A stretch of 11,826 bases of DNA from Verrucomicrobiales bacterium. Lineage in GTDB: Bacteria > Verrucomicrobiota > Verrucomicrobiia > Verrucomicrobiales > DEV007. The stretch is taken from NCBI GenBank assembly GCA_007123695.1, contig SLGN01000277.1:1-11826 (forward strand), written 5' to 3'. A program made the position numbers and the translations under genes. The notes under the pieces are model-generated. The model was given only the letters and a program-made list of their open reading frames with translations. It did not search any database and was not told the origin of the DNA. This document shows, piece by piece, positions 4,170 to 11,826 of this stretch (positions are counted from its first letter, which is position 1; every line of letters starts with the position of its first letter).

Positions 4170-5432
4170 TTAGCGGGTTCCTTGTCTTGCGGGCGGCTCG
4201 GTGCGGTTCCAGTAGATCACGAGGTTGTTCGTGGACCAGCCTGCGGCGACGAGGTCGAGTCGGCCGTTGCCATTGAGGTCGGCGATGCGGAGGCTCTGGC
4301 AGGACATCGTGCCCTCGTCGATGGGGAAGCTCGTCCATCGGCTCGCCTGCGGGTCGAGGGGCACGTAGACGCGGATGCCGAAGTCCCCGACCTCGGGCCC
4401 GCTGCCCCACCAGCCCGCCACGATCTGGTCGCAGCCGAGGCCGAGCAGGTCCACGCAGTAGAGGGCGTGGCCGGTGACGAGGCTGTCGTCGAGCACCTCG
4501 CGATCGCCGCCGTAGCCCCCCTCGTCGTCGGCGCGGTAGAGCACCAGGGAGTGTCCGTGCTTCGGCTCGATAGTGGCGAGGAAACGGCGGTCCCCGGCGT
4601 CGCCCTCGGCGATCTCGCCGAGGCCGGCGTGCCAGGAGCCATCGGGGCGCTGGTTGGGGGGCGTCATCCCCGGCAGCAGACGCGGTCCCCGCGCGCGCCA
4701 CGGCTCGTCGGGAGAATCGCTCATGAACTCCACCCCCTCCATGCCGATGAAGAGGAGTCGCTCGGGCCCGCCCGGCTCGCCAGGCACGGCGGCGAAGGAG
4801 TGCATGTCGCGCATCGACTCCAGCAGCACCTCGCCCGCGTAGTCCGGCCCCGGATCGAGGGTGAAGGGATAGGCGTAGATTTTCGCGTAGTCGTCGCGCG
4901 GCAGGTCGCGCAGACGCAGGTGGTTGCGGCGGCCGAGGTTGGGCACGGCGACGAGCCGCTCCTCCCCGGCGTGGTTGCGCGCCCAGCCGATGCGGTGCTG
5001 CTCGGGCTCGCTGGGGATGCGCACCGGCCGCCAGAGTTCGGTGGGGTCCACGGGCCGCTCCAGGAAGTAGACGGCGGAGTCGGGCCCCCGCGTGCAGACC
5101 GCGATCTCCACCTGCCCGTCGCCGGTGGCGTCGCGGGCGTCGATGCTCATCGCCCCCTGCCCGTCGAGGCGGCTCGCGAGCACGAAGCGGCTCCAGTCGC
5201 CGTTGCGGTACCAGACGAAATCCCACACGTCGGCGAGGAGGATGTCGGGCTTGCCGTCGCCGTCCACGTCGGCCACGCTGAGCCCGTAGCCCTTGCCGAT
5301 CTCGGCGACGACCTCGGGCTCGAAGCGCGGCTCGGGCAGCGGGCGGGGCCCGTCGGCGAGGAGCGCGTGGGGGCAGGCCGCGGCGAGGAGGGCGGCGAAG
5401 GCGAGGTGGAGCGCGTGGCGACGGATCGGCAT
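4170..5432 (-). CDS. Secreted FG-GAP/VCBS beta-propeller protein, related to the aldos-2-ulose dehydratase propeller group
   Basis: This 420-aa exported protein has a signal peptide at 1-26 (hydrophobic AFAALLAAAC, likely cleavage after ALLA). C20 could be a lipobox cysteine, but the context AAAC is weak. Calcium-binding FG-GAP loops are visible at 55-63 (DVDGDGKPD), 101-109 (DATGDGQVE) and 385-393 (DLNGNGRLD), with degenerate blades between. RRFLATIEPKHGHSLVLYR (282-300) and the C-terminal AAGWSTNNLVIYWN (396-409) resemble propeller proteins common in planctomycetes and verrucomicrobia that share their fold with aldos-2-ulose dehydratase/isomerase. That enzyme acts on oxidised sugars, but its cupin domain is absent here, so no enzymatic role can be assigned. 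Binding to a polysaccharide or protein partner outside the cell is equally possible. The ATG at 5432 begins the signal peptide directly; I see no clear Shine-Dalgarno. It is followed on the same strand by the BON/OmpA-like gene. Confidence 0.85.
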   Translation of the reverse strand: MPIRRHALHLAFAALLAAACPHALLADGPRPLPEPRFEPEVVAEIGKGYGLSVADVDGDGKPDILLADVWDFVWYRNGDWSRFVLASRLDGQGAMSIDARDATGDGQVEIAVCTRGPDSAVYFLERPVDPTELWRPVRIPSEPEQHRIGWARNHAGEERLVAVPNLGRRNHLRLRDLPRDDYAKIYAYPFTLDPGPDYAGEVLLESMRDMHSFAAVPGEPGGPERLLFIGMEGVEFMSDSPDEPWRARGPRLLPGMTPPNQRPDGSWHAGLGEIAEGDAGDRRFLATIEPKHGHSLVLYRADDEGGYGGDREVLDDSLVTGHALYCVDLLGLGCDQIVAGWWGSGPEVGDFGIRVYVPLDPQASRWTSFPIDEGTMSCQSLRIADLNGNGRLDLVAAGWSTNNLVIYWNRTEPPARQGTR

Positions 5433-5598
5433 TGGAGAAGTGGGCGGGGAAGGAAGGGGAGATGAGGGCGGCGGAGCGTTTCAGAGCGGGCCCCCTGGTC
5501 GCGGACCATCACCCCAGCATACCATGGAGGGACAGTTGGCGCCATAGGCGCGGAAGTGTCCGTTCCTTCCCGGGATCGTCTCGTAGCGCCGTCTATGA
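5433..5598. other. Intergenic region upstream of the FG-GAP gene, with imperfect palindrome
   Basis: This holds the 5' region of the minus-strand FG-GAP gene. The only structure I see is a two-tier imperfect palindrome at 5530-5561: GGACA (5530-5534) pairs with TGTCC (5557-5561) outside, and GCGCC (5539-5543) pairs with GGCGC (5547-5551) inside. It could be an operator or leader hairpin. No convincing -10/-35 pair was found. Confidence 0.3.
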
Positions 5599-6060: not shown

Positions 6061-6133
6061 TGCAGAACTTAGTTTGAATTGCTTTCCCGACGGGAATTTG
6101 AGAAACCGAAGCATATCGACAGAAGTACCGAAA

Positions 6134-8095
6134 ATGAGAAAATTCGACCTCACTCCTGAGAAAACCCTGGATCGGAAACTCGATTCCGAGAGGATCCTAC
6201 TCGAAGAGAAGAGAAGCAATTCGATTCCGGCGGAGACAGTCTCGAGGCAGGGTGGTGCCAATCCGCCGAAGGTGCTCGTCATCGACGACGATCCTGCACA
6301 GGGCCGTCTCGTCGAGAAATCCCTCGGCCCTGGTTTTCGAGTGCTTCATGAATTCGGCGCTCCGGAACCGGGAGCCATCGATTTCGACGCCGTCGATCTC
6401 GTCGTGCTGGACTACCGCATGCCGGTCCGAGACGGCTTCGCCGTGCTTGAAGAGATTCGCGGGTGCCGCGAGGATCTGCCTGTGATCTTCCTGACGGGCT
6501 TCGGCAATCCCGAGGTTTCCGAGCGCGCCCTCGCGTTTGGGGCGCAGGTATTCCTGACCAAGCCGGCGGGGCCCTTGGAGATTCGCGAAGCGGTTGCGTC
6601 GCTGCTGCCGCGAGCCTCGTTCGCTTCAGAGACGGCTCCGATGGAAGCCGACCCGACCGCGTCGGAGATCGCATCCGAAGCGAGATCCTTCCGCGCCACG
6701 CTGCCGGACGAGCGCAGCCTCGCGGGTCGGCTGGTGCGCTTCAGCGCCCAGTCGGTCGTGGTCGATCTACCGGGCTCGGCTAGACTCGCTTCAGGCACGA
6801 AGCTGGCCGACATCTCCTTCCATTTCGGTCGCCAGCTCCTATCCTCGCCCTCGGGTTTCGTCGGCGACCGCATCACCCTCGCCGGCGGCGTAGTGGAGAC
6901 GGAGGTGATCATTCCAGGGCTGTGGCACACGGTCGAGGGGGCCTTCGCGGGAGAGGATGTTTCGGACGTCGAGTCCACCCCGGACCGGGATTCCGGTCCA
7001 CCCGTCTCCTGCGGCCTTGGCCTGCCCGAGCGCTTCCGGAGCGCCGTCCACGAGCTTTCCGGCATCCTTCGGGAGGTCGAGCACGAGGTCTCGATGCGGC
7101 GCCCTCCCTCACCCGCCCCGGGAAATTTGGAAGCCCTCCGGCGCGAGACGGAGATCGTGGAAGGGGTCTCGGCTTCGCACGGTCCCCGCTTTTGGGACGC
7201 GGTCCTGCGCTTCGAGACGGCCGCCGACGAGGTTCTCGCCGCCGGCCTCGGACGCGAAGGCAAGGAATTCGCGAGGAAATTCCTCTTTCCCTCCGCTCTC
7301 TGCTCACCCTTCCTTGCGCGGGTGGTGGAGCGTCCCATCGGGGTGCCGGGCGACTACGGCATGCTCGGGCAGATTCTCGGGAATCCCTGGGAAGGGCATT
7401 CGCTCTACGGCCGGATCGTCAACTCGTGGATCCTCGGATGCGGGGCGGCCGAAGCCTACCGCTACAGGGTGGCGCTGCTCGACCGCGAGATCCGCGCGGC
7501 TGCGGCCCGATGCGCAGCGGAGGGGCGGAAAACCCGAGTTCTCAGCATGGCGAGCGGGGTGGCCTACGAGATCCAGCGCTTCATCGAGTCGCCGCCCGCC
7601 ACCGGCAGCGCCGAGTTCGTGATGGTCGATTTTTCCGAAGTGACGCTTGCCGAGGCAAGGCGCCAGTTCGCGGCACTGGGCGCCTTGCCGCAAGGGGTTT
7701 CCGTGGAGATGCACCAGAGTTCCGTGCTGGATCTCGCGAGCCGTTCGCGGGGTGCCGGAGGACTCGCCGAGGGCGCCGGCTACGATCCCGGCGGCGGCTA
7801 CGACCACGTCTATTGCGCCGGTCTTTTCGACTACCTCTCCGACCGCCTCATCGTCAGGGTGGTCCGCTACCTCCACAGTTTGCTGGCACCGGGCGGGGCG
7901 CTCGTGGTGAGCAACTTCACGACGCGGAATCCCATCCGCGGCTGGATGACTTTCGTGATGGACTGGGAACTGATCTACCGCACGCCCGAGCACTTCGCAC
8001 GGCTTGTGGAGAAAGCCGCGCCGGGAGCGCAATACCGCACCGAGACCGATGCGGATGGCGTGGAGGTCTACGCGATCGTCGAGAGCAGTCAGTAG
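6134..8095 (+). CDS. Response-regulator receiver fused to a PhcB-like SAM-dependent methyltransferase, with possible PilZ-like middle region
   Basis: The protein has 653 aa from the ATG at 6134. An in-frame TTG at 6074 would add 20 residues and is less likely. Residues about 46-158 are a complete receiver domain: acidic pair D51/D52, phospho-acceptor D93 in VLDYRMP, T121 in FLTG and K143 in FLTKP. Residues about 185-275 resemble a PilZ-like beta fold (LAGRLVRFSAQSVVVDLPG), but the RxxxR and D/NxSxxG c-di-GMP motifs are not evident. A helical region (about 295-395) leads to the C-terminal methyltransferase at about 400-653. Its RPIGVPGDYGM (400-410), GHSLYGRIVN (421-430), YDHVYCAGLFDYLSD (556-570), LLAPGGALVVSNF (583-595) and MDWELIYRTPEHF (609-621) match the PhcB-type family, annotated as 3-hydroxypalmitic acid methyl ester biosynthesis proteins. 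SAM motif I reads VLSMASGVAYEI (469-480) rather than the expected LGCGPA, while the acidic residue after strand 2 (D499) is kept. I infer a cytoplasmic enzyme whose methylation of a 3-hydroxy fatty acid or similar substrate is gated by phosphorylation. The partner kinase is not in the window. Its stop overlaps the stop of the convergent autotransporter gene. Confidence 0.8.
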   Translation: MRKFDLTPEKTLDRKLDSERILLEEKRSNSIPAETVSRQGGANPPKVLVIDDDPAQGRLVEKSLGPGFRVLHEFGAPEPGAIDFDAVDLVVLDYRMPVRDGFAVLEEIRGCREDLPVIFLTGFGNPEVSERALAFGAQVFLTKPAGPLEIREAVASLLPRASFASETAPMEADPTASEIASEARSFRATLPDERSLAGRLVRFSAQSVVVDLPGSARLASGTKLADISFHFGRQLLSSPSGFVGDRITLAGGVVETEVIIPGLWHTVEGAFAGEDVSDVESTPDRDSGPPVSCGLGLPERFRSAVHELSGILREVEHEVSMRRPPSPAPGNLEALRRETEIVEGVSASHGPRFWDAVLRFETAADEVLAAGLGREGKEFARKFLFPSALCSPFLARVVERPIGVPGDYGMLGQILGNPWEGHSLYGRIVNSWILGCGAAEAYRYRVALLDREIRAAAARCAAEGRKTRVLSMASGVAYEIQRFIESPPATGSAEFVMVDFSEVTLAEARRQFAALGALPQGVSVEMHQSSVLDLASRSRGAGGLAEGAGYDPGGGYDHVYCAGLFDYLSDRLIVRVVRYLHSLLAPGGALVVSNFTTRNPIRGWMTFVMDWELIYRTPEHFARLVEKAAPGAQYRTETDADGVEVYAIVESSQ

Positions 8096-11000
8096 CGCAT
8101 CTGCACCCGCATCCGGAAGGCCCAGGCCTCTTCCGCGCTGACGGGGCGGTCTTCGCGGGTGCCGCTGGCGCGGGAGTTCTCGACTCCGTACATCACCTTG
8201 AGGTCGTCGCCGCGGATGTAGTGGTTGAGCCCCACGTAGTATTGCTGGACCTCGTCGAAGCGACGGTTGCCCGGGTAGGCGGTGGGAGCGTTGCGGGCGA
8301 CCTGGTTGAGGCGCACCGCGAAATCACCGTCGGTGTCGAAGAACGAATACATTCCCACGAGCTCGAGCTTGGGCGTGAGCTGGAAGCTGGGCGTCAGGGT
8401 GAGGCCGGTGGGGCGGCGCAGTTCGCCTCCGTTGTCCTCGTCGCGGCGATACTTTGCCTCGGTCCACATGGCCATCATGTTGAACCAGCCGCGGTTGTAG
8501 TTGAGGAAGGGGGAGAAGGCGGTCGCGCCGGTGATTTCGTTGGTGGAGCGCGCCCGGAAGGTGGGAATGTCGGCAAAGTCGGAGCCGAAGTCGAAGGTGC
8601 CCCACTCGGTGCGCAGCTCGTTGTGGAGACGCAGGTAGAGGGAGGGCTTGGGCCATCGGGGCAGGCCGGTGGGATCGTTTCTCCAGATCACGTCGTGCCC
8701 CTCGCGAGGGTTGGCTACGGCGAACTCGTAGTGAAAGTCGTAGCGCTGAACCGGTCCGGTGTGGCTGGTGTAGAGTTCGCGGAAGCGGCCGCTGGCCGAG
8801 GTGAGCCAGTGGAATCGCCCGATGTCGTCTCCGCCGAGGCGGCCGAAGGCCCGCATCGCGGCGGAACGTTCAACGGTCTTGAGAATCATGCTGGAGGTCG
8901 TGTCCTCCCAGCCCAGCGGCACGCGGGCCAGACCGGCCTTGAGGGTAAAAGGTTCGAACAGATCCCACCCGAGCTCGAGGTTGAAGAGCTGCAAGTCGGA
9001 GAAGTCCTCGTCCTTGCCGGTGAACTGGAATCCGGTGGCGAGGTTGAAGCCGAGAGGCAGGTCGCGGTCGGCGGAGAGGCGGGCCCGTCGGACGAACCAG
9101 TTGTCGGCCGACTCGGGGCTGCGCGGATCGGGGTCGGCGCCAGGCTCGCTCCGCGTCTCCGCGTGGTCGTGCTGCACCATGACGAGCCCCCGCAGGTTGA
9201 TGGCTTCGATCGCGTTGCCGATCACGGTCCCGCGCAGACCGTCGCGGAAGGAGCGATCCTCCTCCAGAAAGACGAGGTCGGGATTCTTGAAAAGAGGATT
9301 TTCGTCGAAGTGCCACTGGAAGCCGCCGAAGATTCCGTAGTTCCGGGTCTGCCCCTCGATGAGCTGCGCCTCGTACTGGACGTAGGCCGAGGTGTTGTCG
9401 CTGAAGGCGGCGTTGATGCCGACGCCCGTGGCGAAGAAGCCGGGATTGCGGCCGGGAGTGTCGAAGCGGAGCGTGCCGGAAGCGCCTGGAAAGGTCGAGG
9501 CGATGGAGCGGTCGGCGTCGAGCAGCTCGTGCCGGTATTCCACAAAGACCTCGGGGCGCAGGGCGGCGACGTTCCCCCGGATAGTGTACCCCCCGCGCAG
9601 ACCGACCCCGGCGAGGAGGCTGTCCGCCGAGAGGCGTCCGAACTGCTGGGAGATGGGGGCTCCGGTCTCGCGGAAGCCGTCGATCCAGAGATGGTTGTAT
9701 TGGACAAAGGCGGAGGGGACGATGGAAAGGTCTCCCGCCCCCAGTTGCGCCGACCCCTCGAGGAATAGCCCGAGCTGGTCGCCCTCGGGGCGGGAGCGGG
9801 CGGTGCCGAGGTCCGAATGGCGCTCCATGGCGAAGGAATGATGCTGATGCTGCACGGCGGCGGCGATGGTGGCGCCGTCGAGCATCCAGGTGGCGATGGC
9901 CCCGTAGCCGACGGTGTCGGAGTTCGCCCAGCCGCGACCGCGGTCGAAGTCGATCCGGGCCCGCTCGTAGGAACCGAAGAAGCCGACGCCGAATCCGTCG
10001 GAGACCTCGCGGTCCGCGCCGAAGACGAAGGAGCTGTTCACCTCGCGGAAGCCTCCGAGCTCGAATTCGCGGGCACGCCAGCCGCGCTGGGAGTACACGT
10101 CGGTGAAGGTGTTCCACCCTGGGTCGGAGGGGTCGGCAAAGGGCGATTTCGCGCCGAGGTCCTCCTTCCCGCCTCGCGCCTCCCCCGGCGCCATGGGGGC
10201 CACGCCGAGGGCGCCCCGCAGGCCGAGCTGCGATTGCACCTGCGGCGAGGCGCGGACGAGACGCCGCAGGCGGTCCTGCGCCGAGTAGAGGACCGAGTCC
10301 ATCATTCCCGCAACCTCCTCGGCGGCGACGGCGTCGTAGAAATCAGCGACTTCGTCGCCGGTGCCGAGGTTCAACGCGTATCCTTGCACCGTGGAAAGTG
10401 CGGCCGAACCGTCGGTGGTCTGCAAGTATTCGCCTACCGCGCTCTGGATGCGGTTCAGTCCGAGATCGCGCCCCCGGTAGTCGACGTTGGCGAGCAGGCT
10501 GAATCCCATGGGGCCCGACTGCTTGCGGAAATTCACGAGGGCGTTGTCCTCGACGATGGCTCCCTGATCGACGGTGGGACCGGTGATCAGGTCGAGGCGC
10601 GTGGTCCCGCCCGGCAGCCCTCCGACGAAGACGGGGACGATCCTGGCGCCCGCCGCGAGCGAAGCGCCATTGGAGGCGATGCGGGAATACTGGTCCGCCG
10701 ATGCGATCTCCGGCGCGTAGGTCGCACCGCGGCGGAGGTTGAACTGGTTCGCCCCGAGTGTGGTGCTGCGCCCGAGGCGCAGGATTGACTGGTAGACATC
10801 GACGTTGCCCGACAGACCCGAGGCATCGCCGGTGAGGTAGACCGTGCCGAGCTGCCGAGGATTGCCGCCGCTGCCGCGGTTGATGTCGAGGTCGCCAGGA
10901 CCGGAAATGCGACCGGTGAACTCGAAGACCGACCCTTCCTCGCGCGAGCGCAGGTTGCCCTGGGTGCCGACTTCGACCGGGTTGGTGAGGACGGCGCCGA

Positions 11001-11826
11001 ACTCGTCGGTGTATTCGATGCTGCCGCCGTCATTGACGAAGCGGATTGGCGCACGTCCGCCGCGCCCGAGGGAAAAAACGCGAACGCGGCGCTGTCCGAA
11101 GCGCAAGTTGCCGCTGTCGCCCACGCCGCCGAGATTGATCGCGGTGGTCGCCACGGGCACGCCGTCGTCGTTGATGCGGAGGCGCCCGTTCTCCACGTTG
11201 GTCTCGCCGGTGTAGCTTTTCTCCCCGCCGAGGAATCGCAGTTCGCCGCCGCCGCCCTTGGTGAGGTCGCCGGGGCCGATGATGTCGCCCCGCACGAACA
11301 TGCGCGAGTCGCCCTGCGCGCTCACGGTGCCGCCGTTGGAAGTGAGTCGGATGTTCTGGTCGATGGAGGCGACGTCGGAGGAGGTGCCGGAAGATTGGCG
11401 GAGGCGACCGCCGTCGAGGACAATGGCCCCGCTGCCGATCCTCCACCCGACCGACCCGGGGACGTTGAGCTGGATGGTGCCGCCCGTTTCCGCCCGGACC
11501 GTCCCGGCCCGACCAAGGGCGCCGACGTGGTCGAGCCGGAGCTGGCCGTTGGTCACCGCGACGTTCCCGCTGAAGGGATTCGCGCGGGTCAGCGCGACGA
11601 TGCCGCCCGCGCCTTTCTGCAGGTTTCCGGATCCGGTGAGGAGCCCCTCGAGGACCAAGGTGGAATCGCCGCGGGCGTCGATGCGCGAATTTCCCAATAC
11701 GCGCACGTCGTTTGCTAAGGTCGCGACATCTGCCTCGAGCCCGCCGGCCTGCTGGCGCAGGGTGCCTCCCGCGAGGGTGATCGTGCCGGGACCGAGCCGG
11801 TAGCTGCGGTCTCCCGCCGAGGCGAG
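8089..11826 (-). CDS. Autotransporter with PATR passenger, autotransporter beta-barrel and extra C-terminal OprP/OprO-like porin barrel (5' partial)
   Basis: The frame stays open to the right edge; 1245 residues are visible and the signal peptide lies outside the window. The GTG at 11706 is internal, because the frame upstream continues the same repeat sequence (LGPGTITLAGGTLRQQAGGL). Visible residues 1 to about 480 are a Gly-rich beta-helical passenger with PATR units. A helical linker follows (DFYDAVAAEEVAGMMDSVLY). Then comes a classical autotransporter barrel, from about 10116 to 9307 (about 270 aa), which ends YGIFGGFQWHF, a typical terminal-aromatic insertion signal. The chain does not stop there. 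A further 405 residues (9306-8089) look like a phosphate-selective porin O/P barrel: WFVRRARLSADRDLPLGFNL, FTLKAGLARVPLGWEDTTS, QQYYVGLNHYIRGDDLKVMY, and the end AFRMRVQMRY. No signal peptide or credible start precedes the porin part, so it can reach the outer membrane only as part of this polypeptide. Its last codons overlap those of the convergent methyltransferase gene, with no terminator between. Confidence 0.87.
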   Translation of the reverse strand, partial: LASAGDRSYRLGPGTITLAGGTLRQQAGGLEADVATLANDVRVLGNSRIDARGDSTLVLEGLLTGSGNLQKGAGGIVALTRANPFSGNVAVTNGQLRLDHVGALGRAGTVRAETGGTIQLNVPGSVGWRIGSGAIVLDGGRLRQSSGTSSDVASIDQNIRLTSNGGTVSAQGDSRMFVRGDIIGPGDLTKGGGGELRFLGGEKSYTGETNVENGRLRINDDGVPVATTAINLGGVGDSGNLRFGQRRVRVFSLGRGGRAPIRFVNDGGSIEYTDEFGAVLTNPVEVGTQGNLRSREEGSVFEFTGRISGPGDLDINRGSGGNPRQLGTVYLTGDASGLSGNVDVYQSILRLGRSTTLGANQFNLRRGATYAPEIASADQYSRIASNGASLAAGARIVPVFVGGLPGGTTRLDLITGPTVDQGAIVEDNALVNFRKQSGPMGFSLLANVDYRGRDLGLNRIQSAVGEYLQTTDGSAALSTVQGYALNLGTGDEVADFYDAVAAEEVAGMMDSVLYSAQDRLRRLVRASPQVQSQLGLRGALGVAPMAPGEARGGKEDLGAKSPFADPSDPGWNTFTDVYSQRGWRAREFELGGFREVNSSFVFGADREVSDGFGVGFFGSYERARIDFDRGRGWANSDTVGYGAIATWMLDGATIAAAVQHQHHSFAMERHSDLGTARSRPEGDQLGLFLEGSAQLGAGDLSIVPSAFVQYNHLWIDGFRETGAPISQQFGRLSADSLLAGVGLRGGYTIRGNVAALRPEVFVEYRHELLDADRSIASTFPGASGTLRFDTPGRNPGFFATGVGINAAFSDNTSAYVQYEAQLIEGQTRNYGIFGGFQWHFDENPLFKNPDLVFLEEDRSFRDGLRGTVIGNAIEAINLRGLVMVQHDHAETRSEPGADPDPRSPESADNWFVRRARLSADRDLPLGFNLATGFQFTGKDEDFSDLQLFNLELGWDLFEPFTLKAGLARVPLGWEDTTSSMILKTVERSAAMRAFGRLGGDDIGRFHWLTSASGRFRELYTSHTGPVQRYDFHYEFAVANPREGHDVIWRNDPTGLPRWPKPSLYLRLHNELRTEWGTFDFGSDFADIPTFRARSTNEITGATAFSPFLNYNRGWFNMMAMWTEAKYRRDEDNGGELRRPTGLTLTPSFQLTPKLELVGMYSFFDTDGDFAVRLNQVARNAPTAYPGNRRFDEVQQYYVGLNHYIRGDDLKVMYGVENSRASGTREDRPVSAEEAWAFRMRVQMRY
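10771..11658 (-). repeat. Three PATR-type (passenger-associated transport) repeats within the autotransporter passenger
   Basis: Diverged copies of the pattern G.I.G.G.L.K.G.G.L.L.G.N.Y.G.T.V..G.L.L lie at about 11658-11527 (LLTGSGNLQKGAGGIVALT), 11298-11167 (DIIGPGDLTKGGGGELRFLG) and 10926-10771 (RISGPGDLDINRGSGG, with an insertion). They form one-turn beta-helix units typical of autotransporter passengers. More copies probably lie beyond the right edge. Confidence 0.8.

Follow-up and report, generated by a model that had tools for sequence, protein, structure and literature searches.

Can one polypeptide carry two different outer-membrane β-barrels, and if so, what would the arrangement be for? 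The question is raised by an 11,826-nucleotide stretch of DNA from a Verrucomicrobiales bacterium (contig SLGN01000277.1 of assembly GCA_007123695.1, hereafter the window), in which a single minus-strand frame encodes an autotransporter barrel followed by a region resembling the porin O/P family. The source contig, here C253, spans the whole window and belongs to a 4.4 Mb genome in 759 contigs that is 79.8% complete. The frame runs from the contig end at 11826 to a stop codon at 8089..8091 (taken from the list of open reading frames, ORFs) and codes for 1245 residues, its 5′ end being lost at the contig edge. The analysis described below indicates that the fused two-domain architecture is very probably real and maintained by selection, and that the two domains quite likely form separate barrels.

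Domain organization of the fusion protein

The protein consists of a passenger, a first barrel, a linker and a second barrel, all encoded on the minus strand. The passenger (10117..11826) lacks its 5′ part on this contig and contains PATR-type β-strand repeats and a helical stretch preceding the barrel, as judged from domain profiles and alignment to relatives. β-Helical passenger repeats, a trait of type Va autotransporters, are detected by TIGR02601 (24.6 bits, above the cut-off of 19.85), and the PATR family PF12951 matches residues 188–218 with 20.6 bits, under its cut-off of 27. A frame on another contig of the same genome (G000:C575:5508-6542) begins with a stretch that by eye is signal-like, continues with a PATR repeat scoring just above the cut-off (27.3 bits against 27) and runs off the contig. 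The end of this frame and the end of the window share an 11-base overlap, and the joined protein of 1587 residues is 50% identical to one relative, P0002, from residue 4 to residue 1586. The C575 frame is thus probably the missing 5′ part of the fusion gene, a join that is not proven because the overlap is short.

Barrel 1 (9307..10116, residues 571–840, ending GFQWHF) is an autotransporter translocator domain. The Pfam family PF03797 covers residues 591–819 (E 8e-42; 144.2 bits against a cut-off of 26), while the NCBIfam profile TIGR01414 is matched up to its final position (432 of 432) at residue 840. A family profile also aligns with the solved autotransporter AaaA (9oqa) up to that protein's last residue, which falls on RWnF where barrel 1 finishes, so that barrel 1 ends where a known autotransporter ends. 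In classical type Va proteins the barrel forms the C-terminus of the chain; here 405 further residues follow in frame (9306-8092), and they are conserved in relatives. The fusion protein may therefore work partly as a type Va autotransporter without being a classical member of that type.

The linker (9202..9306) comprises 35 residues and is presumably periplasmic; its length is kept in relatives, and two short helices are predicted in the structure model of the 405-residue part. Barrel 2 (8092..9201, residues 876–1245) ends QMRY and is predicted to be a Porin_O_P-like barrel of 16 strands. The match to PF07396 (Porin_O_P) has E 1.7e-10 for the whole chain and 8.9e-12 when the 405 residues are scored separately (45.4 bits against a curated cut-off of 20.9); it falls in two stretches of which the best covers only positions 28–119 of 370. 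NCBIfam gives no match to the 405-residue part. As an in-frame PF07396 region follows a full autotransporter barrel domain, a second barrel-type domain succeeds the first.

When the 405 residues are modelled alone the predicted fold has 16 strands, with helices at 20–24 and 28–35 and a predicted local distance difference test (pLDDT) below 50 for the first 16 residues. VIA-align ranks OprP and OprO first among the structural matches and the Foldseek E-value ranks them fifth and seventh; residues 25–405 of the model align to residues 9–411 of OprP. No signal peptide is seen by eye at the junction before barrel 2. OprP is marked by an arginine ladder and phosphate selectivity; in barrel 2, 34 charged positions are conserved in 90% or more of the chains (18 Arg/Lys and 16 Asp/Glu), a nearly balanced set counted over the whole domain. 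Phosphate as the substrate is suggested only by the name of the family and the resemblance in fold.

A first-pass annotation of the window had placed the end of barrel 1 at 9307, followed by 405 in-frame residues ending QMRY, and had read these as a porin O/P-like part without a signal peptide. Its coordinates are correct, both families that it proposed score above their cut-offs, and its reading of the second part is borne out by the PF07396 match, the 16-strand barrel model and the structural match to OprP/OprO. The annotation also put forward, as hypotheses, uptake of phosphate or another anion and gating or feeding of the porin by the passenger.

Conservation of the two-barrel arrangement

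The same order of domains is found in every long relative recovered. Approximately 5.8 billion proteins were searched. With both barrels as query, scored on the 8000 candidates sharing most words, seven relatives were obtained, all of which carry PF03797 and PF07396. With barrel 2 as query among long proteins (685–2179 residues) there were ten, including these seven, and again all have both domains. Among proteins of standalone length the barrel 2 search, which detects only relatives sharing short exact words, gave one match, the 229-residue P0011, whose first residues lie within barrel 1 and which extends over the junction. This fragment is labelled Bacteroidia, which points to wrong binning or transfer. 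Distant standalone relatives do exist: porin-length frames encoded by genomes of this order resemble barrel 2 over short stretches, with 26–43% identity. When representative genomes were scanned, the fusion order was also seen at loci L036, L037 and L038. L037 and L036 are probably the same chains as P0004 and P0006 (L036 starts like P0006), with scores and positions equal to those of G012 and G032, two genomes of the same genus, whereas L038 adds another chain. In a Pfam scan of alignment A3 (E 0.001) PF07396 is present in 13 of 13 rows and PF03797 in 11; since those 11 are two-barrel chains, the remaining two rows must be the excised barrel 2 piece and the fragment P0011.

Twelve chains were compared (the joined window protein, P0001–P0010 and L038). 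Barrel 1 has 270 residues in 11 of them and 269 in one, and the linker measures 34–35 residues in all 12. Pairwise distances in barrel 1 and barrel 2 are strongly correlated (0.914; Mantel p 0.0001), which shows joint inheritance of the barrels, and passenger distances track the two barrels less closely (r 0.59 and 0.53). Passengers range from 38 to 912 residues, several chains being cut; in the eight long chains that start with Met, one of which is the probable C575 join, they have 631–912. Of the two barrels, barrel 2 is the better conserved, with a mean identity of 0.56 against 0.50. FastTree topologies of the two barrels are similar, not identical: they share the groups P0003/P0004, P0007/L038 and P0008/P0009/P0010 and differ elsewhere, for example in the placement of P0003/P0004. 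The conserved order, the constant linker, the parallel divergence and the porin fold give good support to a genuine fusion kept by selection, in line with the earlier proposal that it is not a run-on, and the homologues with this order that the annotation had suggested seeking do exist.

Proposed function and alternatives

An autotransporter barrel carries a passenger to the cell surface, and a barrel of the porin family is an open channel. The best overall explanation, which we favour by a modest degree, takes the protein as a conserved chain that brings two barrel domains to the outer membrane, in the following way. The signal peptide would export the protein, and the β-barrel assembly machinery (BAM) would insert barrel 1, moving the β-helical passenger to the surface in the manner of type Va autotransporters. 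The same machinery would also insert barrel 2 as a 16-strand OprP/OprO-like porin, tethered to barrel 1 via the short linker; both barrel types start and end in the periplasm, and a short periplasmic linker fits this topology. The passenger, if it stays attached, would thereby sit next to the opening of a diffusion channel. The use that seems likeliest is a coupling of passenger binding at the surface to import of a small solute, in which the apparently secreted product of a divergent gene (see below) would act as partner. This functional coupling of display and uptake is put forward tentatively. OprP forms trimers, and it may be speculated, at rather long odds, that the surface-display pore and the OprP-like porin make up one machine. 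If barrel 2 also trimerised, a three-pore core would carry three autotransporter barrels and three passengers over the pore mouths; these would catch a solute or a fragment of a polymer and pass it on to the channel, the divergent protein being their dedicated partner.

Several observations weigh against this explanation. A sequence search of solved structures in the PDB with barrel 2 gave no significant match; four weak matches to pyrroloquinoline quinone synthesis proteins (best E 0.34) were taken as chance. Joint inheritance of the barrels would also appear for linked or unlinked genes of one genome. The gene is rare: matches over both barrels occur in 3 of 95 genomes searched for relatives, all within the 33 genomes of the genus and the window's own included, and at E 1e-40 the fusion is found in 3 of 74 genomes of the family, many of the genomes in these and the following counts being incomplete. 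The divergent partner protein also occurs, at 34–36% identity, in three genomes of another family where no fusion was found among the first 3–4 candidates scored per genome. Tricarboxylate transporter genes adjoin the fusion in one locus only (L037) and none is seen in the ORF lists of the window, L038 and L054. Finally, porin matches of a 686-residue model of both barrels span residues ~15–21 to 686, and strands of barrel 1 seem to be mixed in, so that this model is compatible with a single merged barrel.

The alternative that survives best is that two working barrels are joined merely to set their stoichiometry or location, the porin serving for instance as an anchor or assembly aid, and without coupling of transport. 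In its favour, passenger length differs between chains and passenger divergence tracks that of the barrels more loosely, whereas the size of the barrels is kept; in addition, one other genome encodes, close to a distant homologue of the partner, a PATR protein that has no Pfam barrel match. The better conservation of the porin part argues in the other direction, as a mere anchor might not need it, and we consider this reading somewhat unlikely.

It is improbable that the two parts instead contribute strands to one merged barrel of ~28 strands. The 686-residue model, which appears to mix strands of both parts, is of low confidence (pLDDT 60.4; predicted template modelling score 0.47). Type Va translocators are closed barrels of 12 strands; the model has 15 strand pieces in the barrel 1 region, some very short. 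Larger TonB-dependent barrels, at 13–24 Å root mean squared deviation, make up many of its Foldseek matches. Against a merged barrel, barrel 1 resembles a known autotransporter barrel in its full length and in its end, barrel 2 modelled by itself reaches higher confidence than the two-barrel model and aligns to OprP, and a linker of 34–35 residues sits between them. On this basis each barrel probably closes separately.

That two neighbouring genes only seem fused, through a frameshift, a lost stop codon or misassembly, is in practice refuted, although the assembly is fragmented and the junction in this genome is known from it alone, because the unusual order is kept in all ten long relatives and in L036–L038 (two of which are probably among those ten); moreover, the linker length is fixed, the standalone search yielded only a junction-spanning fragment, and GC content at third codon positions stays at 0.80–0.93 in 15 of 15 blocks of the frame, junction included.

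Comparison with known outer-membrane proteins

In the usual description of type Va autotransporters the chain stops at the barrel, whose C-terminal strand carries the BAM signal. The fusion protein shares with AaaA, EspP, NalP and EstA the passenger repeats and, after them, an entire PF03797 domain that ends in the usual way, but its barrel is not C-terminal, 405 porin-like residues coming after it. In comparison with OprP and OprO, its porin sits behind an autotransporter barrel and, by eye, has no signal peptide of its own at the junction. Two barrel-type domains are recognized in the chain by sequence, and barrel 2 by modelling as well. The founding paper on multibarrel outer-membrane proteins is reportedly that of Solan et al. 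from 2021. The class itself, defined by the presence of more than one barrel per protein, has been published, and GfcD is one of its examples (PMC11494523). GfcD likewise has two barrel domains per chain, but these are predicted to have 12 and 13 strands and to be joined by a periplasmic middle domain, and the introduction of that account mentions no autotransporter passenger (PMC11494523).

The first-pass annotation knew of no described protein with this order. Among titles and abstract openings of the open-licence literature we likewise found no report of a porin barrel placed behind an autotransporter barrel; the claim needs narrowing in that multibarrel proteins as such are already published (PMC11494523). 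The fusion is accordingly placed within a known class, and what appears new is the autotransporter-then-porin order. With an intact barrel end internal to the chain and a different barrel after it, the protein offers a natural system for how BAM handles two barrels per substrate. It allows one to ask whether an internal β-signal is read, and whether surface secretion and solute uptake can share one molecule.

Occurrence and gene neighbourhood

In the 95-genome search 67 genomes have some match at E 1e-3; apart from the three fusion genomes, in one of which (G032) the fusion is split over two contigs, these matches are to a single barrel only and of low identity. At E 1e-40 the fusion is present in at least 3 of 386 genomes sampled from the order and at least 1 of 387 from the phylum, the latter being the window's own; in both samples only the first 3–4 candidates per genome were scored where more existed.

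A divergent gene for one kind of protein lies beside the start of the fusion gene in all four loci where the upstream side is present (L036, L037, L038 and C575). The protein has 444–511 residues in the frames read, the L036 copy being cut at a contig edge (241 residues), and identity to the L038 copy is 64% for L036, 56% for L037 and 51% for the window's own genome. It has no Pfam family above cut-off, no PDB match and one NCBIfam match far below cut-off; by eye it appears β-propeller-like with a signal peptide. In the family it occurs in 3 of 74 genomes, the same three that have the fusion, and in the order sample in at least 6 of 386. By eye, a GTCAC-type element recurs in the divergent promoter regions, with GTGAC/GTCAC half-sites in some; it is possibly a common operator (L046 around 5303-5520; L036:745-859; L037:6691-6900; L038:7680-7800).

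Just downstream of the fusion gene in L037 a TctC–TctB domain fusion (L037:11611-13221, plus strand) is followed by TctA. Elsewhere Tct genes were judged from ORF lists, with a domain scan of the nearest downstream gene in the window and in L038, where it encodes a glycosyltransferase of family 9. Since Tct genes adjoin the fusion in a single locus, a link to tricarboxylate uptake was dropped from the explanation. In the window a convergent plus-strand gene (6074-8095) overlaps the fusion gene tail to tail at its 3′ end; its product combines in a single chain a response-regulator receiver domain (PF00072, 2.6e-17) and a methyltransferase-like domain below the Pfam cut-off. In another genome of the order (L047:9501-11396, plus strand) an ice-binding-like domain, PF11999, is fused to an autotransporter barrel.

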